Virus record (IMG/VR): IMGVR_UViG_3300010885_010564
Span: 1 to 24,331 of that record
Source of the DNA: a virus
Reading direction: 5' to 3' (one strand)
Length of the DNA stretch: 24,331 nt
Of the stretch, positions 1,990 to 22,743 are shown piece by piece (the stretch's first letter is position 1; every line of letters begins with the position of its first letter). Both the position numbers and the translations under genes were made by a program. A model generated the notes under the pieces. That model made no database searches. It was not told the origin of the DNA and saw only the letters and a list, made by a program, of their open reading frames with translations.

Positions 1990-2723
1990 AAATAGTTTAT
2001 TGGGATGCTCACTATGATGAACTTGAAAGAGTTAATCACTATTTAAAATTAATTGGTTTAGAATGCGAAAGGCATTTAGATAATAAACCTCCTGATGAAT
2101 TTGATTTATTATTTGTACATGAAGCACATTTTGCAGGAGCAATTCCACAACATAGGAGAAAAGACTGTATCATTGTTTTTTGCCTTCATCCAATTCATAT
2201 AAATCAATACTATCAAATGGGATTCACAAGAGCTATCCTGAAAAACTCAGAACATAAAAAAAATTGGATAGGCGAAGGAGTAGTTTTACCTCCATTAGTT
2301 AATGTTTACGAACCAGCTCCAGTTAATGACAAGTTAGTTTCAATCATTCACTTTTATAGACAAAGAGATGAACAAGGCTATCATTCAGCTATGAACTTAG
2401 GAGCTTTAGTTTATGGACAAGGAAACGATTTAGGAGAGGCAAACGACCACGAATTGTTCAAGGAAGGAATGAAAGCTTTATTCCACGTCAAGAGGTGCGG
2501 TTATTTATGCAATGCAGTTATTAAGGCTATAAGTTACGGAGTTCCAATTATTATGGATAGAGGTACTTACGACTATGGATACCAAGATATTCTCATACCT
2601 AATTATAACATGGCGGTATTTGGCGAGGATTACAACTTAGACGAGATAAGAGAAAACCAACTTAAACATAGATTACTCCTGCACGAACAAACCAAACAAT
2701 CAGAAATATTAACCTTACTATGA
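1986..2723 (+). CDS. Glycosyltransferase-like protein (GT-B type C-terminal half), 245 aa
   Basis: The C-terminal part contains a nucleotide-sugar-binding-like segment, VKRCGYLCNAVIKAISYGVP (residues 168-187), with a following IIMDRGTY. This matches the conserved 'K..G...N.V..A.ayGvP.v' element of GT-B glycosyltransferases. The N-terminal half (LLFVHEAHFAGAIPQ, then IIVFCLHPI) looks like the acceptor-side Rossmann half. At 245 aa the protein is shorter than standard GT-B enzymes (350-400 aa), so it may be a minimal or partner-dependent transferase. It overlaps the upstream and downstream genes by four bases each. Assignment as a glycosyltransferase rests on the motif and on context; activity and substrate are not determined. 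Confidence 0.6.
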   Translation: MKIVYWDAHYDELERVNHYLKLIGLECERHLDNKPPDEFDLLFVHEAHFAGAIPQHRRKDCIIVFCLHPIHINQYYQMGFTRAILKNSEHKKNWIGEGVVLPPLVNVYEPAPVNDKLVSIIHFYRQRDEQGYHSAMNLGALVYGQGNDLGEANDHELFKEGMKALFHVKRCGYLCNAVIKAISYGVPIIMDRGTYDYGYQDILIPNYNMAVFGEDYNLDEIRENQLKHRLLLHEQTKQSEILTLL

Positions 2724-3781
2724 AAATACTTGTAATTATACCAAAACCAATAACTGGTGTTGAATATCACCGTTTATTAATGCCATTTGATAATTTAGGG
2801 GAAGGATACGAAGTAACCTCAGTTGAAGCAATAGACCATCAACCTGATTCTTTTATACAACAGTATGATTTAATCTATACAAGTTCAGTAATTAGTAAAT
2901 TTGGGCATCAGGAAGTACTATGGGAACAATTAAAGAGGTTAGGTATTCCCGTTATTATTGACCGAGATGATGACTGGATGCTACCTCATGACCACTTAAT
3001 GAAAAGGGATTGGGTTAAAAATAAAACTGCTGAACAAATAGTTTACAATTTTAAGATGGCAGCAGCAGTAACTGTACCTACTGAATACTTAGCTCAAAAA
3101 GTTAGACAATTTAACCATAATGTGTTTGTAATACCGAACGCTATTGACTTTAATCAAGCTCAGTTTAAACCTGATCAAAAGGTAAAGGACCTTAAAACCG
3201 ATAAAGTTCACATTGGTTGGAGTGGTTCAGTTACGCATTTTCAAGATGTAATGATGCTGACTGATACTTTTATGCAACTTAACTCAAATCCTGACACAAG
3301 TAAAAAGTATAGAGTAGTTTTGAGCGGATTTACAGAAGGCCAGCAAGTTTGGGAAGAATACCAAAAGATTTTCACATCAGGTTACAAAATAGCAGAGGAC
3401 CAGTATTGCAGAATTAACGGAATGGATGTCTACACTTACGCAAGTGCTTACGATTTAATGGATGTTGGATTGATACCTTTAAAGGACACCGAATTTAATC
3501 GTTGCAAGTCAGAACTTAAAATGATGGAAATGGGTGCAAAGAAGCTACCAGTAGTGGTTTCTAATCAATATCCCTATACCAACATAGCCAAACATGGAAT
3601 TAACTGCCTAACTGCTAATAAAAAGGATTGGTTCAAAAACATAAAGAGGTTAATTGACAGCAAAGAGTTAAGAGAAGAGTTAGGCGAAGCCCTATATGAA
3701 GAAATATTTACCAATTTTAATATATTAAAAATAAACGAGTTAAGAAAGGAGGTGTTTAATTATGTCACAAGGAAGAAATAA
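2720..3781 (+). CDS. GT4-like glycosyltransferase, 353 aa
   Basis: This is a full-length GT-B fold transferase. The N-terminal segment GVEYHRLLMPFDNL (residues 13-26) and the acidic patch IIDRDDDW (79-86) match phage and bacterial GT4 family proteins. VIPNAIDF (137-144) is the inter-domain hinge signature, and HIGWSGSVTHFQD (164-176) starts the C-terminal nucleotide-sugar domain. The later segment CKSELKMMEMGAKKLPVVVS is the donor-binding E-x7-E-like region. Length fits the family. The gene overlaps the upstream gene by four bases and the terminase small subunit by 20 bases, so a sugar-transfer gene is physically coupled to DNA packaging and probably made late in infection. The acceptor is unknown; virion protein or host surface glycan are both possible. 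Confidence 0.8.
   Translation: MKILVIIPKPITGVEYHRLLMPFDNLGEGYEVTSVEAIDHQPDSFIQQYDLIYTSSVISKFGHQEVLWEQLKRLGIPVIIDRDDDWMLPHDHLMKRDWVKNKTAEQIVYNFKMAAAVTVPTEYLAQKVRQFNHNVFVIPNAIDFNQAQFKPDQKVKDLKTDKVHIGWSGSVTHFQDVMMLTDTFMQLNSNPDTSKKYRVVLSGFTEGQQVWEEYQKIFTSGYKIAEDQYCRINGMDVYTYASAYDLMDVGLIPLKDTEFNRCKSELKMMEMGAKKLPVVVSNQYPYTNIAKHGINCLTANKKDWFKNIKRLIDSKELREELGEALYEEIFTNFNILKINELRKEVFNYVTRKK
3745..3754 (+). promoter_or_regulatory. Strong Shine-Dalgarno site for terS
   Basis: AAAGGAGGTG lies inside the end of the glycosyltransferase gene, with GGAGG nine bases before the terS ATG at 3762. A near-perfect anti-SD match is unusual for Bacteroidetes, whose genes seldom use SD pairing, and it decides the terS start within a 20-base gene overlap. 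Confidence 0.75.
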
Positions 3782-10508: not shown

Positions 10509-10626
10509 ATTTAAAGAGCTTATTGAAAAATGCGAGTTAACCGAGTTAGTTAAATTAATTGATTCGGCTGATTCAACTATATTAAGTATAATAATCAAAA
10601 CAGAAAACGAGGTACTGAATGGCTAA
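10498..10626 (+). CDS. Small coupled ORF, 42 aa, unknown
   Basis: An ATG at 10498 lies inside the last codons of the 870-aa gene (11-base overlap), and its frame runs to TAA at 10624-10626, eight bases into the tape-measure gene. It encodes MLDKFKELIEKCELTELVKL followed by a short acidic/hydrophobic tail, so it would be mostly helical. It exactly fills the 110-base gap that otherwise separates two tightly packed genes, and both junctions are stop/start overlaps typical of this operon. No function can be assigned; a small tail-assembly factor or a leader peptide coupling translation into the tape-measure gene are options. Confidence 0.6.
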   Translation: MLDKFKELIEKCELTELVKLIDSADSTILSIIIKTENEVLNG

Positions 10627-12349
10627 AAATGAAGTAGTAATAGAAACCAAAGTTGTAACTGGTGACAGTGCGGCAAAGATTGAAGAAGTCAGTAAGTCAA
10701 CGGATAAACTCAACGACAACTTAAAGGAAACCCAAAAGGAAGCCAAAGAAACTGAGAAGAAATTAGACAAAGCTACTGATGCGGTTGGGAAAATGCCCGG
10801 TCCTATTGGAGCTGCTGTGGATGGTTTTAAAGGTATGCTTAATTCTTTCAAAGCTATTATTGCTTCTCCAGTAGGAATGGTATTGGCTGCGGTTGCAGTT
10901 GTAGTTGGTTCATTAGTGGCTATATTTTCAAAATTCAGTCCGATAGTTGACTTTCTATCTGATAAGATTGCTTTATTGAGTGGGGCTTTTTCAGGTTTAC
11001 AAAATCAAGTAGTAAGTTTTATTCAGGGAACTGGCTTTAGTACCGAAAAAATAAAGGAACAAGCTTTAGCAATGCAAGAAGCCGAAAGAGCCACAAGAGA
11101 TTTTGAAGACTCTTTATCTGCTTTAAATCTAACTCAAGCTCAACAAGAAAGAGCTATTGATGTAAACTTAAAAAAGCTAAAGAATAAAAACATAACTGAG
11201 AAGGAATCAAATGCTATTATCAATGAAACTATAAAACTTCAAAAGCAGCAGATTGATGACCTACAAAAGAACCAAAAGAAAGAAACTGAAATATTAAAAC
11301 TAAAGGTCAAAGGTTATGGCGGTACTAATAGACAAATACTTGAAATAGTTAGGGGACGTTCAGTTGCAGAGCTAAACACTGGGAATGAGGATTTAGACAA
11401 AGCTTTAATTGCACTTCAGGAGAATTACGGGAAAAGAGTAAGTACAGTAAGCACCTATGAGCAGAAATACGAAAGAATACAAAACGTAAAAGATGCTCAA
11501 GATGCTAAATACAAATCAGCTCAGGAGGCAAGACAAAAAAGAGTTGAAGAAGAACAAAAAAAGAGTTTAGAACGTCAACAAAAACAACTTGATGACTTTG
11601 ATAAGGCACAAAAAGAAAGAGAAGATGCTGTTAAAACTGGATTTGATAAGACCTCAAAAATAACTGAGGACTATTACAAGCAGGAATCAACTAAACTTTT
11701 AAATCAGAATTTAACAACTGAGCAACTAAAAAAAGAGCAGGATGAATTAGATTTAAAACGACTAAATCAGCAACTTGAAAACGCCAAAATGTATGGGCAA
11801 AGTACAGTTGATTTAGAGTATCAATTAGCTCAGAAAAAAGTAGGTATTGCAAAAGAAGCAGCAGATGCTCAAAAGAAAATTGATGATGAAACCGCAGCAA
11901 ACAGAGTTAAGGCTTTAGACTCAGCATCAAATACTTTAAAAACATTTGCAAGCGTATTAGGTGAAACGACAGCTGAAGGAAAAGCTTTAGCAATTGCAGC
12001 TACTACTATTGATACGTATAAGGCCGCTCAGAGTGCTTATGCAAGTTTAGCAGGAATTCCAGTAGTAGGACCAGCTTTAGGAGCAGCAGCCGCAGCCGCA
12101 GCAATAGCCTCAGGGTTAGCAACAGTTAATAAGATTTTAAGTGTTCAGGTACCGGGTAGTTCAGGTGGTGGTTCAATCCCATCAGCACCACCAATGACAC
12201 GTCCTTCAAGTTCATTCACTCGTATAGATAATACTAATCCGATTGATGTAAACAATACTGGAGCAACTAAAGTCTATGTTACTGAAACCGACATCACCAA
12301 TACACAAAAAAAGGTTGACGCTATTAAAGCTAAAGCAGTTATAGGTTAA
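10619..12349 (+). CDS. Tail tape-measure protein, 576 aa
   Basis: The protein sets tail length and is probably injected with DNA. It has a charged, Lys/Glu/Ala/Gln-rich coiled-coil composition with long helices (for example residues 20-55 and 290-440), a hydrophobic segment at about residues 79-103 (AIIASPVGMVLAAVAVVVGS), and an Ala/Gly-rich hydrophobic stretch near 470-510. The C-terminal part turns to a Gly/Ser/Pro linker and a short soluble end. This architecture is typical of tape-measure proteins, and 576 residues would predict a fairly short tail (roughly 85 nm at 1.5 angstrom per residue, family rule of thumb). It starts inside the end of the 42-codon ORF. Tape-measure genes normally precede tail-tip genes; here it follows them. 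Confidence 0.75.
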   Translation: MAKNEVVIETKVVTGDSAAKIEEVSKSTDKLNDNLKETQKEAKETEKKLDKATDAVGKMPGPIGAAVDGFKGMLNSFKAIIASPVGMVLAAVAVVVGSLVAIFSKFSPIVDFLSDKIALLSGAFSGLQNQVVSFIQGTGFSTEKIKEQALAMQEAERATRDFEDSLSALNLTQAQQERAIDVNLKKLKNKNITEKESNAIINETIKLQKQQIDDLQKNQKKETEILKLKVKGYGGTNRQILEIVRGRSVAELNTGNEDLDKALIALQENYGKRVSTVSTYEQKYERIQNVKDAQDAKYKSAQEARQKRVEEEQKKSLERQQKQLDDFDKAQKEREDAVKTGFDKTSKITEDYYKQESTKLLNQNLTTEQLKKEQDELDLKRLNQQLENAKMYGQSTVDLEYQLAQKKVGIAKEAADAQKKIDDETAANRVKALDSASNTLKTFASVLGETTAEGKALAIAATTIDTYKAAQSAYASLAGIPVVGPALGAAAAAAAIASGLATVNKILSVQVPGSSGGGSIPSAPPMTRPSSSFTRIDNTNPIDVNNTGATKVYVTETDITNTQKKVDAIKAKAVIG

Positions 12350-12378: not shown

Positions 12379-14292
12379 ATGGCTAAATTACCTTTATACG
12401 AACTACTTATAAACGAAGATGAAGAAACTGGAGTTGACTTTATTGCTTTAGTAGATTCGCCTGCAATTGAATACGACTGGGTAGCTTTTAAGAGTGAATT
12501 TGAAACTTACAACGACTATCCTAAAGCTGCAAGTGAAAACGCAAAAAGAGCATTAGAACTTAGGGACAAATACCAATTAAATTGTGGCACTCCAGTTGGA
12601 TGGACAAGAGCTAATCAATTGGCTAATGTAGAAAATATCAGCAGAGAAACGATTGCAAGGATGTCAGGCTTTGAACGCCACAGAGAGAATTCTAAAGGCG
12701 ACCCTAAAGAAGACTGCGGGGCTTTAATGTGGTTAGCGTGGGGTGGCGATGAAGGGATAGAGTGGGCAAGTAGAAAATTACAACAGATTGACTTAGCAAC
12801 TCAAAAAATCTCTATTGACTATGATGATACTTTAAGTACTTCAAGAGGACAAGAGTTAGCGAGTAGATTATTATCTGAAGGAGTAGATTTATATGTCATC
12901 TCAGCTCGTAATGATAAAGAGGGGATGTTAGAACTTACTAATAAGTTAGGCATCCCTGAATCAAAAGTTTTTGCTACTGGTTCAAATAAGGCAAAAGTAG
13001 AGAAGGTTAACGAATTAGGAATCTCTAAGCATTACGACAACAACGCAGAAGTAGTTAAGGCACTTGGAACAATCGGGGAAAAGTTTATAGTTGAGCCAAA
13101 AGCAGGAGAAAGCCAAGACGAGTTTGTAAGTAGGTGCATAGGAGTTGAGGTTAATGGCGGAATGAGTCAAGAACAAGCAGCAGCGGTTTGCTATGCTAAG
13201 TGGGAAAAGAAAGGCTTTAGCTTTAAGACAACTGACAAGCAAATAATCTCAGGACCAGCAATGATTCCGAACCAATCTATCTATCGTAGAGGAAAAGATG
13301 GTGAAGAGTATAATGTAGTTTTCTCAAAAGAAACGATTCAAAAAATAGTAGAGAGATATTTCAAAAACCAATACAATAGCAACTTTAATCTGCAACATAA
13401 AAAGAATATGTTAGCGGAAGGGGTTTACTTAATTGAGTCTTTCATCATTGATTCAATGCGTGGAATTAAAGCACCAGAAGGCTTTGAAGATTTACCAGAT
13501 GGTAGTTGGTTTATTTCGTGTAAGGTGGACAACGAGGAGATTTGGAATGACTACATTAAGAGTGGTAAGTTTAAAGGATTTTCTGTTGAAGGATTATTCA
13601 CAGACAGAAAAGTTGAGATGGTTACTAATGTCCAAGAGGCAATCGCACTTGTTGATAAATTAAAATTGAATAAACAAAATATATATACAAATAATATGAG
13701 CGATGTAAAAGAGCTTTTAACTAAGTTGAAAGAAATCTTCTCAGAAGAAGTAGCTTCTTTTGAGGAGGCAAAATTAGCAGATGGAATTACCATCATTAAA
13801 TGGGAAGGACCATTGGCAGAAGGTACGAGTGTAATGGTAGTTAGCGAGTCAGGTGAAGTCCCAGCTCCAGATGGCGAACACGAATTACAAGACGGCAGAA
13901 AAATCACTGTTGAAAATGGAAAAGTAACCACTTTGGTTATGCCTGAAACTCCAGCTGAAATGCCTGAAGCACCAGTTGAAATTGAAATTGAAGCTAAACA
14001 AAAAATGGCTGAAGACTATATGCCAATGGTTGAAGAAATGGGTGCTAAAATCATGAAGTGCGAAGAAATGATAATGGAACTTCAATCAAAAATGAAAGAA
14101 ATGATGGGAGCTACTGAACAAAAAATGGATTCACAAAAAGAAGCTTTTTCTAAGTTAGTTGAAATCGTTGAGAAGTTAGCAGATGCGCCTTCAGAAGTGA
14201 TTGACACAAAAGCTTTCAATGTTAATTTCAAAGCTGAAAAAGACAACCAATACAATAAATTAAACGAAATTTTAAACATATTAAATAAATAA
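12379..14292 (+). CDS. Multidomain prohead protease (XkdF-like) with HAD-like insert, fused to scaffold, 637 aa
   Basis: Residues 1-37 (LPLYELLINEDEETGVDFIA, LVDSPAIEYDWVAF) and 283-407 match the two parts of XkdF-type serine proteases, with likely catalytic His340 (NFNLQH) and Ser402 (KGFSVEG). Between them sits about 245 aa of inserted modules: 44-137, a helical domain with VGWTRANQLA and WGGDEGIEWA; 143-230, a HAD-like domain with D147-Y-D149-D150-T151, Ser175 in VISAR, lysines at 204-209 and HYDNN at 218-222; and 233-280, a small domain with ESQDEFVSRC and AAVCYAKWE. From Met440 the sequence becomes a Met/Glu-rich coiled coil typical of capsid scaffolds. The protease matures the prohead; the HAD activity is untested inference. 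The motif-bearing linker before Met440 suggests the scaffold is also made separately. The protein sits just before the major capsid gene, as expected. Confidence 0.8.
   Translation: MAKLPLYELLINEDEETGVDFIALVDSPAIEYDWVAFKSEFETYNDYPKAASENAKRALELRDKYQLNCGTPVGWTRANQLANVENISRETIARMSGFERHRENSKGDPKEDCGALMWLAWGGDEGIEWASRKLQQIDLATQKISIDYDDTLSTSRGQELASRLLSEGVDLYVISARNDKEGMLELTNKLGIPESKVFATGSNKAKVEKVNELGISKHYDNNAEVVKALGTIGEKFIVEPKAGESQDEFVSRCIGVEVNGGMSQEQAAAVCYAKWEKKGFSFKTTDKQIISGPAMIPNQSIYRRGKDGEEYNVVFSKETIQKIVERYFKNQYNSNFNLQHKKNMLAEGVYLIESFIIDSMRGIKAPEGFEDLPDGSWFISCKVDNEEIWNDYIKSGKFKGFSVEGLFTDRKVEMVTNVQEAIALVDKLKLNKQNIYTNNMSDVKELLTKLKEIFSEEVASFEEAKLADGITIIKWEGPLAEGTSVMVVSESGEVPAPDGEHELQDGRKITVENGKVTTLVMPETPAEMPEAPVEIEIEAKQKMAEDYMPMVEEMGAKIMKCEEMIMELQSKMKEMMGATEQKMDSQKEAFSKLVEIVEKLADAPSEVIDTKAFNVNFKAEKDNQYNKLNEILNILNK
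13678..13688 (+). promoter_or_regulatory. AATATATATAC motif inside the protease gene, before the nested scaffold start
   Basis: AATATATATAC lies seven bases before an in-frame ATG at 13696 and is nearly identical to the motif before the gene at 19291. In the protease frame it encodes a linker (NKQNIYTNN) with no domain character, so the DNA looks like a gene leader that happens to be translated through. Confidence 0.45.
13696..14292 (+). CDS. Nested in-frame scaffold protein (internal start), 198 aa
   Basis: This is the C-terminal part of the protease gene read from Met440 (MSDVKELLTKLKEIFSEEVA). It is acidic and Met/Glu-rich, with a Pro/Glu hinge (PETPAEMPEAPVEIEIEA) and a long predicted coiled coil (about protein residues 115-160), then a short C-terminal helix, as in capsid scaffolds. 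Internal initiation is supported by the leader-like motif just upstream and by precedent: phage lambda expresses scaffold Nu3 from an in-frame start inside protease gene C. The scaffold would template capsid assembly and be removed by the protease. The alternative is that scaffold is released only by self-cleavage of the 637-aa fusion. Confidence 0.6.
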   Translation: MSDVKELLTKLKEIFSEEVASFEEAKLADGITIIKWEGPLAEGTSVMVVSESGEVPAPDGEHELQDGRKITVENGKVTTLVMPETPAEMPEAPVEIEIEAKQKMAEDYMPMVEEMGAKIMKCEEMIMELQSKMKEMMGATEQKMDSQKEAFSKLVEIVEKLADAPSEVIDTKAFNVNFKAEKDNQYNKLNEILNILNK

Positions 14293-14295
14293 AAA

Positions 14296-15252
14296 ATGGC
14301 ATTCTCGGTAGGTACTATCACTGGCTATGTAAAAGCCAACGAAAGAGAATTATTGACTAAGTCTTTATTCTCAGCAAAATCAATTTCTTTGGCTACAAAA
14401 ATGCCAAACGTAAAATCAGCCGCACAAGTTAACGTGATGGATACAGACGCTGTGTTTCAATCAGGTACTTCATGCGGATTCTCTGCATCAGGAACAACAA
14501 CTTTTACAAATAGAAGAATGACTGTTTCTCCTATTCGTGTTCACGAATCTTTATGTCCAAAAACTTTAGAAGATACTTACTTACAGTTAGTATTGCCTAA
14601 TGGTTCAAATCCAAAATCTATTCCATTTGAACAACAATTTACAGACTTAAAAACTGGTTTGATTGCTCAAAATTTGGAGAGAGCTTTTTGGCAGGGTGAC
14701 ATCACTTCAGGTGATAATGCTTTAGCTCGTTTTGATGGTTTAATTAAAATCATTACTACGGTTTCAGGTTCTGCAATTGCTGCTAACAGTTCAGTATTTA
14801 TGGCTGGAGCTCCTTACTCAGCTTCGGGAGGTATTACAGTATCAAACGTAAATGCAATCATGCAAGGTATTTTCAGAGCTATTCCTGCTGCTTTACTTGA
14901 TAAGCCTGATACAGTTATCATGTGCGGTATTGATACTTTCAGAACTTACCAATTAGCATTAACTAACGCTAACTTGTTCCACTACAACACAGATGCTTCA
15001 AACACTAATTTTGAAATCGTCATTCCTGGAACTAACATCAAGGTTATCGGTGTAAATGGATTGAACAGTACTGGCAGAATCTATGCTTTGAGAACTTCAA
15101 ACATGTTCTTCGGTTGCGACGTTTTAGGCGAAGAGTCTAAATTTGAATTGTTCTGGGCACAAGAGGCAATGGAAGTTCGTTATGTAGCGGAATTCAAAGC
15201 TGGTGTTCAAATAGCATTTCCAGCAGAAGTAGTTTACTACGTAGGTTCTTAA
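14296..15252 (+). CDS. Major capsid protein, HK97 fold-type, 318 aa
   Basis: Position directly after a protease/scaffold gene, length of about 320 aa and composition (few charges at the N-terminus, Ala/Asn/Thr-rich) fit a major capsid protein. Features include an N-terminal helix (KANERELLTKSLFSAKS), a beta-rich part with RRMTVSPIRVHESLCPKTLE (about 75-94), the long spine-helix region FEQQFTDLKTGLIAQNLERA (about 112-131), and a C-terminal beta end (VRYVAEFKAGVQIAFPAEVV). ATG is preceded by an A-rich leader (AAATAAATAAAAA), typical of strongly expressed Bacteroidetes genes. The gene is followed by a strong terminator, consistent with high, gene-specific expression. The HK97 fold is inferred, not seen from a signature motif. 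Confidence 0.8.
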   Translation: MAFSVGTITGYVKANERELLTKSLFSAKSISLATKMPNVKSAAQVNVMDTDAVFQSGTSCGFSASGTTTFTNRRMTVSPIRVHESLCPKTLEDTYLQLVLPNGSNPKSIPFEQQFTDLKTGLIAQNLERAFWQGDITSGDNALARFDGLIKIITTVSGSAIAANSSVFMAGAPYSASGGITVSNVNAIMQGIFRAIPAALLDKPDTVIMCGIDTFRTYQLALTNANLFHYNTDASNTNFEIVIPGTNIKVIGVNGLNSTGRIYALRTSNMFFGCDVLGEESKFELFWAQEAMEVRYVAEFKAGVQIAFPAEVVYYVGS

Positions 15253-15936: not shown

Positions 15937-16356
15937 ATGATTCATCTTAATTTTGGATTAAACGAAGTATTTGCAACTGCGAGTGAAAATATAACTATGC
16001 CAAATGCAGGCAATTGGGATAAATTCAATGAAGGTTATTTTGGTATTTATTCGCAAGTAACTAAACAGACAAAGTGGGTTTATGTTGTTAATTCAACTAC
16101 TTACTATCCAAGAATAGATAATTTTACTATTGAATTGGTAGCAAATATTGGAGATGAAGACTTGCAAAATGGTAGAGTTTATTTGAAAGATACTGGAAAT
16201 TACGAGTATTCAATTTATACAAGATTTGAAAGTAACCCTGAACCAAATACAAGCGAACAACTATTAGAAAGAGGGAAATTATTATACGGATTTAATGAGC
16301 TTACAGTAACTACCTACAACCCTAATATTGAAATAATAACTTATGACAGACAGTAA
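15937..16356 (+). CDS. Putative virion protein, 139 aa, unknown function
   Basis: This beta-rich protein lacks enzymatic motifs, signal peptide and membrane segments. It contains strands around TKQTKWVYVVNSTTYYPRID and a G-x-Y-x-Y-S-I-Y-T segment (NYEYSIYTRFES), followed by SEQLLERGKLLYGF. The 'Y.Y.iye.......ll..G.l' pattern recurs in small structural proteins of Bacteroidetes phages next to the portal, but no function is known to me. The end overlaps the portal gene by 14 bases. A capsid or neck accessory protein is the likeliest role by position. Confidence 0.5.
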   Translation: MIHLNFGLNEVFATASENITMPNAGNWDKFNEGYFGIYSQVTKQTKWVYVVNSTTYYPRIDNFTIELVANIGDEDLQNGRVYLKDTGNYEYSIYTRFESNPEPNTSEQLLERGKLLYGFNELTVTTYNPNIEIITYDRQ

Positions 16357-18175
16357 AAGCAAATTTGTTTTTTATAACGAACCAGTAAGCAGTTATCAAG
16401 TCCCAATATTTGAAAAGGACAAAAATAAAGAGTACGTAAACTATGGAGAAGATAATAACTATCCAGCTTATTTAGTTGATTTATTCAACCGCTCAGCTAA
16501 ACATAACGCTATTTTAACTGCTAAACAGAAGTATACTTATGGTAGAGGATTAAAAATAAAAGAAGGATTAGTTATTGATCAGGCAATTAAAGCTCAGGCC
16601 TTTTTAGTTCGTCCTAATACCTTTGAAACTCTAAGTGATATATTCAATAAAACTATTTTAGATAAGCGTTTATACGGAGGATATGCACTTCAAATTGTAT
16701 GGAGTAAGTTAAGTGGTAAGGTAGCACAAGTTTATCACATGGATTTTGCTAAAATCCGTTCTAATGTAGATAACACTTCTTTTTACTACTCGGATAATTG
16801 GGCAGATTACAGACCAAAAGTTGTAGAGTACGACGCTTTTAATCCTGAAAAAAGAGAGGGTGTACAGATTCTTTACTATCGTGAATACAGACCGAATTTA
16901 AATACTTATCCTTTGCCTGATTATATCGGAGCTATTCCGTATATTGAAAGTGACGTAGAAGTAGCAAACTTTCATAGAGCTAACCTTCAAAATAACTTTT
17001 TCTTTGGTGGTATTTTAAACTTTAATAATGGCATTCCGACTGACGAGGAACAAAGAGCATTAGTAAGAAGGATAAACAACAAACATGGCAGCACCGATAA
17101 CGCTGGCAGATGGATTATTAACTTCTCAGATGGTTCAGATAAAGCTCCTAATGTAATTAGTCTTCAGCCAAGCGAATTAGACAAGCAGTTTGATATACTA
17201 AACGATACTATACAACAAGAAATATTCGTAGCTCATAGAGTAACTTCTCCTATTTTTATGGGTATTCGTATAGAAGGCCAATTAGGTGGTAGAAATGAAA
17301 TGGTAGATGCGTTCAAATTATTTGAACAGAATGAAATCAAACCTGACCAACAACATTTTCAAGAATTATTTAATTACATAATAGGTTTTAACGGAATAAA
17401 TCAACCTTACGAAGTTCAGCCTTTAGAACCTTTCAGCCCTGAGTTTACTGAGCAAACGTTGATTCAGATTGCGACTAAAAACGAGTTGCGAGAAATGGCA
17501 GGTTTACCAAAACTTGAAGAGCCAACACCAGTAACACCTCAAGCATTTTCAGAAGATTCAGAAATTGAAGTTTTCGCAGAATATGGAGTAGATGCTGAAG
17601 ACTATTTAGAGTTTGAAAGTAGAAGATTAGAAGTATTTGAAGACCATTATAGCTTTGAATCTCATTTAGAATTTAATGAACAAGAATTAGTAGAGTTAGC
17701 CTTTGCGATTGAGTCTTTAACTGAAGAAGAAAAGAAGTTAATTAGTCAAGTTAAAAAAGACCCATTAATATCTAAAAAAGATTTAGCCGTGAACTTAGAA
17801 ATCAGCGAAGGTAAATTAGACGAGTTAATCAAATCTTTAAAAGTAAAAAAAGTTTTGACTTTAACTGAAGGAGCTTGGAACGTAATTAATATTTTACCTA
17901 CTCAATCAGCGATTGGAAAGATTGCAGACGAGTTGAAAAAGTATGAAGTTAGATACAAATATCAAGGACCTAACGATTCAAAGAACAGAGCTTTCTGTAA
18001 GGCTTTATTAAACTTGAATAAACTCTACACAAGAGATGAGATTAGTAAAATCTCTCAACGTGTAGGGAGAAATGTATGGACAAAAAGAGGAGGCTGGTAC
18101 ACTAAACCCGGTACCGATATTCACCTTCCTTATTGCAGGCATCAATGGGCATCAATTTTAGTTAAGAAAAAGTAA
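16343..18175 (+). CDS. Portal protein with fused winged-helix-like and MuF-like C-terminus, 610 aa
   Basis: Residues 1 to about 400 form the portal: a start with YVNYGEDNNYPAYLVDLF and ILTAKQKYTYGRGL, a clip/stem region, and a crown segment with VTSPIFMGIRIEGQLGGRNE and an ELREMAGLPKLEEP motif (the 'N..R...glp' of portals). An acidic linker follows (about 410-455). Residues 459-508 resemble a winged helix (LTEEEKKLISQVKKDPLISK, then a recognition-like helix). Residues 536-610 look like a Mu gpF/SPP1 gp7 minor head protein end: YKYQGPNDSKNRAFCKALLN, a GGW motif near 583-585, and PYCRHQWA at the end. The portal is the DNA entry channel; the MuF part probably enters the capsid. It overlaps the neighbouring genes. 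MuF is usually a separate gene, so the fusion is notable. Confidence 0.85.
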   Translation: MTDSKSKFVFYNEPVSSYQVPIFEKDKNKEYVNYGEDNNYPAYLVDLFNRSAKHNAILTAKQKYTYGRGLKIKEGLVIDQAIKAQAFLVRPNTFETLSDIFNKTILDKRLYGGYALQIVWSKLSGKVAQVYHMDFAKIRSNVDNTSFYYSDNWADYRPKVVEYDAFNPEKREGVQILYYREYRPNLNTYPLPDYIGAIPYIESDVEVANFHRANLQNNFFFGGILNFNNGIPTDEEQRALVRRINNKHGSTDNAGRWIINFSDGSDKAPNVISLQPSELDKQFDILNDTIQQEIFVAHRVTSPIFMGIRIEGQLGGRNEMVDAFKLFEQNEIKPDQQHFQELFNYIIGFNGINQPYEVQPLEPFSPEFTEQTLIQIATKNELREMAGLPKLEEPTPVTPQAFSEDSEIEVFAEYGVDAEDYLEFESRRLEVFEDHYSFESHLEFNEQELVELAFAIESLTEEEKKLISQVKKDPLISKKDLAVNLEISEGKLDELIKSLKVKKVLTLTEGAWNVINILPTQSAIGKIADELKKYEVRYKYQGPNDSKNRAFCKALLNLNKLYTRDEISKISQRVGRNVWTKRGGWYTKPGTDIHLPYCRHQWASILVKKK

Positions 18176-21512: not shown

Positions 21513-21781
21513 TTTTATTACTCCTATATGTTTGGCTTGATGCAATTCGTGATTCAATAGCTCATCATGACGCTTACTATAAGTTAGGTAGATTCTTTTC
21601 AAGGGAACGCAGCGAGATGCTAAAGCCTTTGTTCTTTCAATACTTTCCAATGCTATGGGATGCTTGGCATTTAGCAAAGTTTATTCAGTATAACATAGTA
21701 GCTTTTTTAATTGTTAAGTCCTTAGCCTTTCCAATAGTAACTACCATAATGAGCTTGTTATTTATATCACTCTATATATGA
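21509..21781 (+). CDS. Membrane-associated protein, 90 aa, unknown
   Basis: Begins with a hydrophobic segment (MILLLLYVWLDAIRDSIAHH), followed by a soluble middle containing YYKLGRFFSRE and PMLWDAWHLAK, and a hydrophobic C-terminus (VTTIMSLLFISLYI). The 'lDa.rDa..h...Y..lG..fsR' and 'WDAWHl.K' elements occur in small Bacteroidetes phage proteins, which have no known function to my knowledge. It is coupled by four-base overlaps on both sides (ATGA at each junction), inside the lysis block. A role in membrane association or lysis timing is possible but unproven. Confidence 0.6.
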   Translation: MILLLLYVWLDAIRDSIAHHDAYYKLGRFFSRERSEMLKPLFFQYFPMLWDAWHLAKFIQYNIVAFLIVKSLAFPIVTTIMSLLFISLYI

Positions 21782-22743
21782 AAAAACCAAACAATATTAT
21801 CTACGAATATTTAAAAGACTACCCAAATACCCCAAATAATACTTTAGCTAAAAAGATCTATTCAGATAACCCAGCTCAATTTAAAAGTGTTGAATCAATC
21901 AGAAGATTAATTAGGTATTATAGAGGTTCAGATGGTGATGCTAACAGAGGTTTTGCAAAAGAACATATTGATTACTTAGCTAAACTAAAAGAGGAACTAC
22001 CTAAAGGCGAAAGTGAAAAGGTAGAACCATACTATCTACCAAAAGACCGTCACAAAGTTTTAATTATTAGTGACATTCACTTACCTTACCATGATGATAA
22101 GGCTTTATTTGCTGCACTTGAATATGGATTAAAAGAAGAAGTAGATACTATCTATATCAATGGTGACCTTTTAGATTTCGCTTTAATTTCCAAGCACGAA
22201 AATACCACTACAAAACACTCGGTTAAATACGAGTTAGACTGTGCTAAAGTATTTTTAAAAGGCCTTAGAGAAATGTTCCCAAAAGCTCTGATTATTTATA
22301 AGTACGGAAATCATGATTTAAGGTTTGATAAGTGGATTAGACTTAAAGCTCCTGAGCTATTAGATATTGAGCACATAAATTTAGCAGAGATACTCGGACT
22401 TAGGGAACTTGAGATAATTCAATTAGATAGTTTACAATGGTGCTATATGTTTGACATCGCAGTTTTGCATGGTCACGAACTACCAATGAAAAGTGGAGGG
22501 ATTAATCCAGCAAGAACAGCGAGGTTAAAGATAAATAGACCATTAATTATAGGTCATTTTCACAGACAAAGCAAAGATGCTGGAATGATTTTAGGAAAAC
22601 CATATTATTATGCTTATTCAACTGGATGCTTGTGCGATTTATCCCCAGCTTACATGCCAATTAACGATTGGGTACATGGGTTTATTTTAATTAATCAAGG
22701 ACAAGTCTATCAAAAGGAGGTTATAAATGGAACAGTTATCTGA
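21778..22743 (+). CDS. Calcineurin-like metallophosphoesterase with N-terminal HTH-like region, 321 aa
   Basis: All core motifs of metal-dependent phosphoesterases are present: D99-x-H101 (ISDIHLP), GDLLD (129-133), GNHD (177-180), HGH (231-233) and GHFH (259-262). The N-terminal 50 residues (YPNTPNNTLAKKIYSDNPAQ, then VESIRRLIRYYRG) resemble a helix-turn-helix unit, suggesting nucleic-acid binding. Family members hydrolyse phosphate mono- or diesters, including nucleotides and nucleic acid; substrate here is unknown. It is placed between small membrane proteins and the endolysin, an odd site for a nucleic-acid enzyme, and is coupled by overlaps on both sides. Catalytic residues look intact, so an active enzyme is expected. 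Confidence 0.9.
   Translation: MKKPNNIIYEYLKDYPNTPNNTLAKKIYSDNPAQFKSVESIRRLIRYYRGSDGDANRGFAKEHIDYLAKLKEELPKGESEKVEPYYLPKDRHKVLIISDIHLPYHDDKALFAALEYGLKEEVDTIYINGDLLDFALISKHENTTTKHSVKYELDCAKVFLKGLREMFPKALIIYKYGNHDLRFDKWIRLKAPELLDIEHINLAEILGLRELEIIQLDSLQWCYMFDIAVLHGHELPMKSGGINPARTARLKINRPLIIGHFHRQSKDAGMILGKPYYYAYSTGCLCDLSPAYMPINDWVHGFILINQGQVYQKEVINGTVI
22712..22721 (+). promoter_or_regulatory. Strong Shine-Dalgarno site for the gene at 22727
   Basis: AAAAGGAGGT lies inside the end of the metallophosphoesterase gene, with GGAGG seven bases before the ATG at 22727. Like the terS site, it is a near-perfect SD at a gene overlap. Confidence 0.7.

Follow-up and report, generated by a model that had tools for sequence, protein, structure and literature searches.

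A HAD domain with an intact catalytic set among exchangeable modules in the XkdF-type capsid protease of uncultured tailed phages

The window analyzed here, a complete IMG/VR virus record of 24,331 bases, contains on its plus strand an open reading frame (ORF) at 12379–14292 that starts with ATG and encodes 637 amino acids (aa). By its sequence this protein is an XkdF-type (Peptidase_S78_2) capsid protease, and inside it lies a HAD domain with an intact catalytic set (module B), placed between two further small modules, A and C. The phages that carry relatives of these modules appear to be a group of tailed phages sharing a module pool, A to J. Our best explanation, which we hold tentatively and as close to an even call, is that module B is a portable, head-loaded phosphatase module with the protease as one of its carriers.

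In IMG/VR, 516 stretches code for a protein related to at least part of the insert. The comparison was built on 248 loci (L numbers below), assembled by searching with the insert, with the HAD domain and with the protease core (best 80 each) and by adding named phages, some contigs being repeated. The HAD-drawn sample is the best 80 of at least 372 and the core-drawn sample the best 80 of at least 579; counts of module strings and architectures refer to distinct sequences. Two loci from different metagenomes (L011 and L012) encode a protein 100% identical to that of the window. A sequencing chimera or assembly artefact was rejected as the source of the insert, as many independent contigs carry its relatives.

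The Pfam domain Peptidase_S78_2 (XkdF) scored 46.2 bits at residues 283–406, above its cut-off of 24. The original prediction had the protease split after residue 37 and resuming at about residue 283, and this division is correct, because bare relatives continue directly at about residue 37, where the window's N-terminal segment ends: their N-terminal XkdF segment joins the S78 core without interruption (N>S78 junctions). That segment (residues 1–37; 12379–12489, +), recognized by the profile N upstream of S78 in bare relatives, comprises two strands (residues 6–10 and 18–25) and forms the common insertion point. Approximately 245 residues (38–282), made up of modules A, B and C, separate it from the protease core (13225–13596, +). 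Despite the insert, His340 was kept in 53/53 protease rows and Ser402 in 52/53, with one gap; we take these two residues to be catalytic.

Module B comprises residues 140–236 (12796–13086, +) and was delimited by exact gaps in relatives, by structure prediction and by its motifs. In 59 aligned HAD rows, D147, D149, T151, R177, K206, D220, N221 and N222 were invariant (59/59), while residue 175 was Ser in 57 rows and Thr in 2. The motif positions proposed from the single sequence (D147/D149/T151, S175 and D220-N-N) were as claimed, including the conservation of both motif I aspartates throughout the 59 relatives; among the three lysines put forward, K204, K206 and K209, it is K206 that is invariant. 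AlphaFold2 modeling of module B alone with the 59 rows gave a pLDDT of 96 and a pTM of 0.89, upholding the HAD fold that had been anticipated for residues 141–232, and the DxDxT of motif I follows a strand (143–146) and leads into a helix. Among solved structures, the 3′-phosphatase domain of T4 Pnkp (5uj0) matched with Z 11.4 and 2.4 Å over 99 residues and human phosphoserine phosphatase (6hyy) with Z 11.2, and HAD phosphatases overall scored Z 9–11 across 97–100 residues.

Profile comparisons of the 59 module B members (E ≤ 0.1) matched phrog_8630, annotated as nucleotidase, in 47 (best 2.7e-5), the polynucleotide kinase family phrog_415 weakly in 3, and two phage families of unknown function in 48 and 45. 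The Pnkp-like and nucleotidase links favor nucleic-acid ends or nucleotides as substrates; HADs without a cap frequently take large substrates. The HAD-in-XkdF architecture is already in public databases, uncommented: in BFVD, uncharacterized ‘XkdF’ proteins of uncultured Caudovirales phages carry the HAD of module B (A0A6J7WUA4, TM 0.96, 66% identity), and standalone HADs of the same kind are found there too. Matches of module B in named phages reached only 28–31% identity (E 0.002–0.02; 60 listed of 71 records), and those listed were nearly all from Flavobacterium ‘elemo’ phages and annotated as HAD family hydrolase.

Direct evidence that the modules are separate units came from close relatives. 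Two of them (L021 and L022) are without exactly 306 nucleotides (nt) corresponding to module A (window 12490–12795), and five (L024, L025, L028, L031 and L035) are without exactly 291 nt corresponding to module B (12791–13081 or 12793–13083); in L037, the eighth relative compared, 288 nt are missing at module B along with further small shifts. The DNA flanking these in-frame gaps is 79–92% identical in all compared relatives except L037. Between L158 and L138, the 306-nt module A is present in one and absent from the other, in phages whose flanking DNA is 97% identical along 1744 nt to the one side and along 699 nt to the other. The earlier division of the insert into three modules is borne out, in the case of A and B by exact in-frame gaps, while the idea that the insert comes and goes as one cassette fails, as A, B and C move separately.

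The order of the modules is equally fluid. Among 156 distinct protease cores, 48 carried no module, and the remaining strings were CB (35), AC (19), CA (9), ABC (8), CAB (7), CBA (7), A (7) and ten rarer ones, including ACB, BCA and strings with modules located after the core. Of the six possible A/B/C orders, five are present across the 248 loci; BAC was not seen among the 156 cores. Up to four profile-detected modules occupy the protease loop (A-HAD-C in the window), and in L046 and L051–L055 the core precedes module A. Cores identical across the 162 retained alignment columns can carry different inserts, ABC in L013 and AC in L030, CAB in L119 and CB in L132 and L141, and CAB in L158 and CB in L113 and L138. 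A quick tree of the cores, from which rows without N or S78 and incomplete rows were excluded, required at least 46 string changes (B 18, A 26 and C 15), numbers that may be inflated among near-identical rows, with 55 of 142 inner branches left open. In the most extreme pairs, module DNA was 80–87% identical and the core DNA gave no match over 80% of its length. The core-drawn sample contained 52/80 loci with no module (one incomplete), 28/80 with one or more and 3/80 with a HAD, so the statement that such proteases usually run straight from the N-terminal segment into the core was about right. A general requirement of the modules for head assembly was rejected, given the 48/156 distinct cores and 52/80 core-drawn loci that are bare.

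Such very fast turnover, together with identical cores that carry different inserts, speaks for the view that the modules are selfish or neutral passengers which recombination spreads among permissive loops, a reading we consider very improbable. Its other support is an exact 7-nt direct repeat, TTTGCAG (coding for F-A), at both ends of the 306-nt module A in L119 (3683–3995), and the weaker constraint on module C. Median dN/dS (Nei–Gojobori, pairs with dS 0.15–1.2) was 0.43 for C, compared with 0.11 for A, 0.24 for B and 0.06 for the protease core, and the purifying selection on A and B speaks against mere passengers. So do the ends of the modules: at the four other breakpoints the end repeat was 0–1 nt, and the similarity of the breakpoint ends (9–12 of 24 positions) did not exceed the 95% chance point of 12 at any of the five. 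No module matched recombinase or homing-enzyme families, and every positive record held a single copy (see below). Conserved catalytic residues and purifying selection argue for an enzyme. Phe tends to occur at module junctions, often as F-A, and may mark a cleavage site or merely the start of a strand.

The companions of module B are small and mostly without recognizable relatives. Module A (residues 38–139; 12490–12795, +; CG..GW.RANQLA..WGGDEGIEWA) is predicted to be helical and gave no useful Pfam or Protein Data Bank (PDB) relatives, a PDB profile search returning one designed protein at E 4.8. It does occur in head proteins of haloarchaeal tailed viruses at 55–57% identity, namely the portals of HRTV-4 (L001) and HRTV-28 (L003) and the prohead protease of HGTV-1 (L002), as well as in a Vibrio phage protein whose gene lies between those for MuF and the capsid, and in S-CBS4 gp19 and other small hypothetical proteins. 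A match span of 46–216 prompted the reading of HRTV-4 as A plus HAD; this was rejected, as the HRTV-4 protein contains only A, placed between portal and MuF, and no HAD motif is visible by eye in the remaining span. Module C (residues 237–281; 13087–13221, +; GES..EF.SRCI...QAAAVCY.KW) is a short two-helix unit with two Cys invariant in a 12-row alignment, and no relative was found among named phages. A fold search with the whole protein (model pLDDT 69.5, pTM 0.34) returned nothing at E ≤ 0.001 and is uninformative on A or C.

At least seven further small modules accompany A, B and C, and those sharing the slot include a zinc ribbon (E) and modules F, G, H, I and J. Module H is DUF3721 (41.2 bits against a cut-off of 27). 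The Cys-rich module G (CPIATQDIK...CGNCAFF...CDAWV; approximately 115 aa, no Pfam match) lies between C and the HAD in four proteases (L159, L161, L165 and L145). Domain J (YKYQGPND..NRAFC...CRHQW), which presumably resembles MuF C-termini and also had no Pfam match, is found at the protease slot in L155 and L156, comes after the N segment in L099 and lies in a separate ORF in L252.

That the HAD fold serves as a non-catalytic structural or binding part of assembly is, in our view, improbable. The companions A, C, D, F and I match no Pfam enzyme family and the HAD is missing in close relatives, as a binding module would allow; yet invariance of the nucleophile, acid/base, Lys and metal Asp in 59/59 rows is unexpected for a pseudo-enzyme. 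A second, different DxDxT HAD also speaks against it: at 2–931 in L023, a fragment beginning at the contig start that, by its first residues, is probably a protease with modules behind the core, a member of another HAD family (DIDDT; Hydrolase_3, 24.5 bits against a cut-off of 20.9) sits between A and C, as if phosphatase chemistry were the retained feature.

The HAD is not special to the protease. Its insertion there, as originally described, stands; it was also found in portals, in genes of its own and in varied orders. Carriers in the HAD-drawn sample were the protease in 75/80 loci, the portal in 4/80 and a separate 149-aa C-B protein in 1/80. In portals the HAD sits between the portal core and domain J, as PORT-C-B-J (L146, L147 and L167) or PORT-B-J (L136). 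Three of these portal-HAD records (G001, G002 and G004) have a bare protease with an N-S78 of 202–207 aa, and no protease was found in the fourth, a 4.4-kb fragment. Small separate genes carry the HAD as D-B-A (L058–L061), C-B (L144 and L263) or D2-A-B (L036), and A and D-A likewise occur as small genes of their own. Record G009 combines a small D2-A-B gene (L036, 193–993) with a bare, coil-fused protease elsewhere (L252, 1330–2472). Among 18 bare-protease records, 10 have A as its own gene of 140–186 aa (D-A in nine, D-A-F in one), and a separate A was absent from all 22 further HAD-bearing records whose protease lacks A. Tuning of the protease by the modules was rejected, as the same modules occur in portals and in genes of their own. 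The swapping of carriers suggests a portable tool joined to any available late virus protein.

Whatever the carrier, copy number stayed at one. The HAD occurred exactly once per positive record at E ≤ 0.001 (10/11, 39/39 and 1/18 bare-protease records positive; 48 different positives). Module A was single in every positive record (21/32 and 19/42 positive), as was module C (28/50 positive, a count that omitted L110, L140, L142, L164 and L170 from the 55 intended records). A separate A was present in 0/27 records with A in the protease versus 10/43 without (Fisher p 0.005, kinship ignored), all ten being bare-protease phages; three records chosen for having a separate A were omitted from this test. 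Because carrier and position vary while copy number is one, the module probably works by itself.

The main rival to head loading is a late phosphatase of the producing cell that is never delivered, acting there on nucleotides or on DNA ends from terminase or HNH, with fusion merely providing late and abundant expression. One copy regardless of carrier suits this alternative, as do the positions of several separate genes: D-B-A in L059 lies between a glycosyltransferase and the HNH and terminase large genes, C-B in L263 is one ORF upstream of the terminase large gene, and D-A in L279 has a glycosyltransferase on one side and a ParB-like gene on the other, together with an ORF in between that looks HNH-like by eye. 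We regard it as possible but on the unlikely side: 79/80 HAD-drawn loci have the domain fused to prohead proteins (protease or portal), and a protease loop offers no gain to a purely cytoplasmic enzyme. With carriers so overwhelmingly of this kind, head loading is the simplest reading.

Several observations weigh against a head-loaded phosphatase. Universal stress proteins match the fold of module B equally well (3tnj, Z 11.7), so the fold alone is no proof of a phosphatase and the motifs decide. What ties module B to Pnkp is a weak, structural link. Pfam HAD models were hardly reached, with Hydrolase_3 found in 4/59 members (E ≤ 0.1, best 0.013), and the Rossmann family ADH_zinc_N matched 50/59 members (best 2.3e-4). 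The profile search for HAD families suggested at the outset therefore gave a divided answer, in that none of the 59 members passed a curated Pfam HAD cut-off and the phrog nucleotidase family was matched; we read the former as a limit of sequence models, because motifs and fold fit. Separate A, D-B-A and C-B genes have no evident tie to the capsid, and a late function in the producing cell would fit them too. The records are mostly fragments, in which second copies could be overlooked and absences are weak.

Under our preferred explanation, module B would be a catalytically complete capless HAD phosphatase from a pool of small portable modules, one copy per genome, attached to late head or packaging proteins. 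Its usual site would be the loop of the XkdF-type protease between the second and third strands, with positions behind the core, in the portal or in a small gene of its own as alternatives, and it would act independently, with no role in tuning the protease. Proteases of the XkdF type come in along with the scaffold, and the portal belongs to the shell; membership in the protease (beside the scaffold) or in the portal would put module B into the prohead and hence into heads. It might be cut free at maturation and would then dephosphorylate its substrate, most likely a nucleic-acid end or nucleotide, inside the capsid or after entry into a new host cell. Doubtful, though conceivable, is the wider proposal that the protease loop is a payload bay, in which interchangeable enzymes and binding modules are co-packaged with the scaffold, proteolytically released and delivered with the genome, with the portal as an alternative bay and a rule of one copy.

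If the portable-module explanation is true, a large group of uncultured phages, probably of Bacteroidota, uses its capsid maturation proteases and portals to carry swappable small proteins whose turnover exceeds that of single carrier residues. These would constitute a natural catalog of candidate head-delivered enzymes, and the loop a compact insertion site for engineering cargo into the heads of harmless phages. For annotation, a HAD, zinc ribbon or small domain in a record named ‘XkdF’ or ‘portal’ would be uninformative on the carrier's own job.

Gene order around the protease follows a recurrent pattern, protease > coil > major capsid protein > portal, in 92 loci. In the window the coil is fused to the protease as a C-terminal scaffold-like region (13654–14289, +; COIL profile, long coiled coil with a helix at residues 548–601), which many relatives encode separately, in a gene lying between those for the protease and the major capsid protein. 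The ORF at 14296–15252 (+), probably encoding the major capsid protein in the window, matched phrog_1623, a virion structural protein family (E 1.5e-6), and phrog_11320, and the portal protein (16343–18175, +; phrog_33693, E 1e-40) carries an extra C-terminal domain J (residues 535–611; approximately 17942–18172, +; J profile). A tape-measure-like protein is encoded immediately upstream of the protease (10619–12349), placing tail genes between terminase and head genes. A glycosyltransferase of phrog_7162 (2720–3781) adjoins the terminase small subunit, and the separate D-B-A and D-A genes of L059 and L279 directly follow a glycosyltransferase of this type. Near the window end lies a metallophosphoesterase (21778–22743; Pfam Metallophos, E 1e-7).

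The host is probably a member of the Bacteroidota, judging from gene relatives. The only named-phage match of the portal core was to the Nonlabens phages P12024S/L, which were also best for the protease core (27% and 30% identity), and 10 of the 12 top-listed terminase matches (1261 records in all, many hosts) were to Bacteroides or Parabacteroides phages at 39–40%. In GTDB genomes, 64 pattern matches for the HAD and 19 for the protease core included no relative.

Within full-text literature judged by titles and abstract openings, with subscription papers and preprints outside its scope, no paper was found that describes a HAD inside a capsid protease or the shuffling of modules within its loop. 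The sole paper found with both ‘haloacid dehalogenase’ and ‘prohead protease’ (PMC5099504) has them in separate places, and in a jumbo phage survey (PMC7824862) XkdF peptidases and RNA-repair HADs appear separately. Release by a built-in peptidase is an earlier idea: for polyvalent proteins, which combine several unrelated domains in one phage protein and are thought to be packaged and injected, Iyer 2017 (PMC5512222) describes some with a C-terminal assemblin-like (virion maturation) peptidase and proposes domain release by embedded peptidases, which we counted in favor of head loading and release of module B. Searching its text gave neither ‘XkdF’ nor ‘phosphatase’, and no HAD family stands in the passages concerned. 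In the window protein the protease core follows the modules; it is XkdF and not assemblin-like, and the coil behind it means that it is not terminal. No Pfam domain of the polyvalent repertoire, which Pfam may not cover in full, was found in the window protein or the tested modules.

Compared with known systems, the window protein shares with XkdF-type capsid proteases (PF14550; PBSX XkdF) the core domain, the His and Ser and the place before the scaffold and major capsid protein genes, and differs in having its loop filled with modules. Module B shares fold and DxDxT/S/K/D motifs with capless HAD phosphatases (the T4 Pnkp 3′-phosphatase domain, KdsC and MDP-1) but is only approximately 95 aa long, falls below Pfam HAD cut-offs, has DNN as motif IV and is fused to capsid proteins. 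T4 Alt and the internal proteins are, according to the SPN3US paper (PMC7411985), processed by the prohead protease and ejected into the host; the likeness lies in the idea of enzymes inside the prohead that are cut at maturation and enter the host. There the cargo bears a capsid targeting sequence of its own and is cleaved by the protease as a substrate; the putative cargo here is built into the protease or portal. Ongoing domain exchange within phage proteins resembles the domain mosaicism of Smug 2023 (PMC10684548), whose main text never mentions protease or portal. Among the closest known kinds, with T4 Alt, are the polyvalent proteins of Iyer 2017 and MuF/portal fusions, which likewise place several domains in one protein (portal-A-MuF in HRTV-4); in contrast, the carrier here is the capsid protease proper, and very small modules switch order and carrier while keeping to a single copy.

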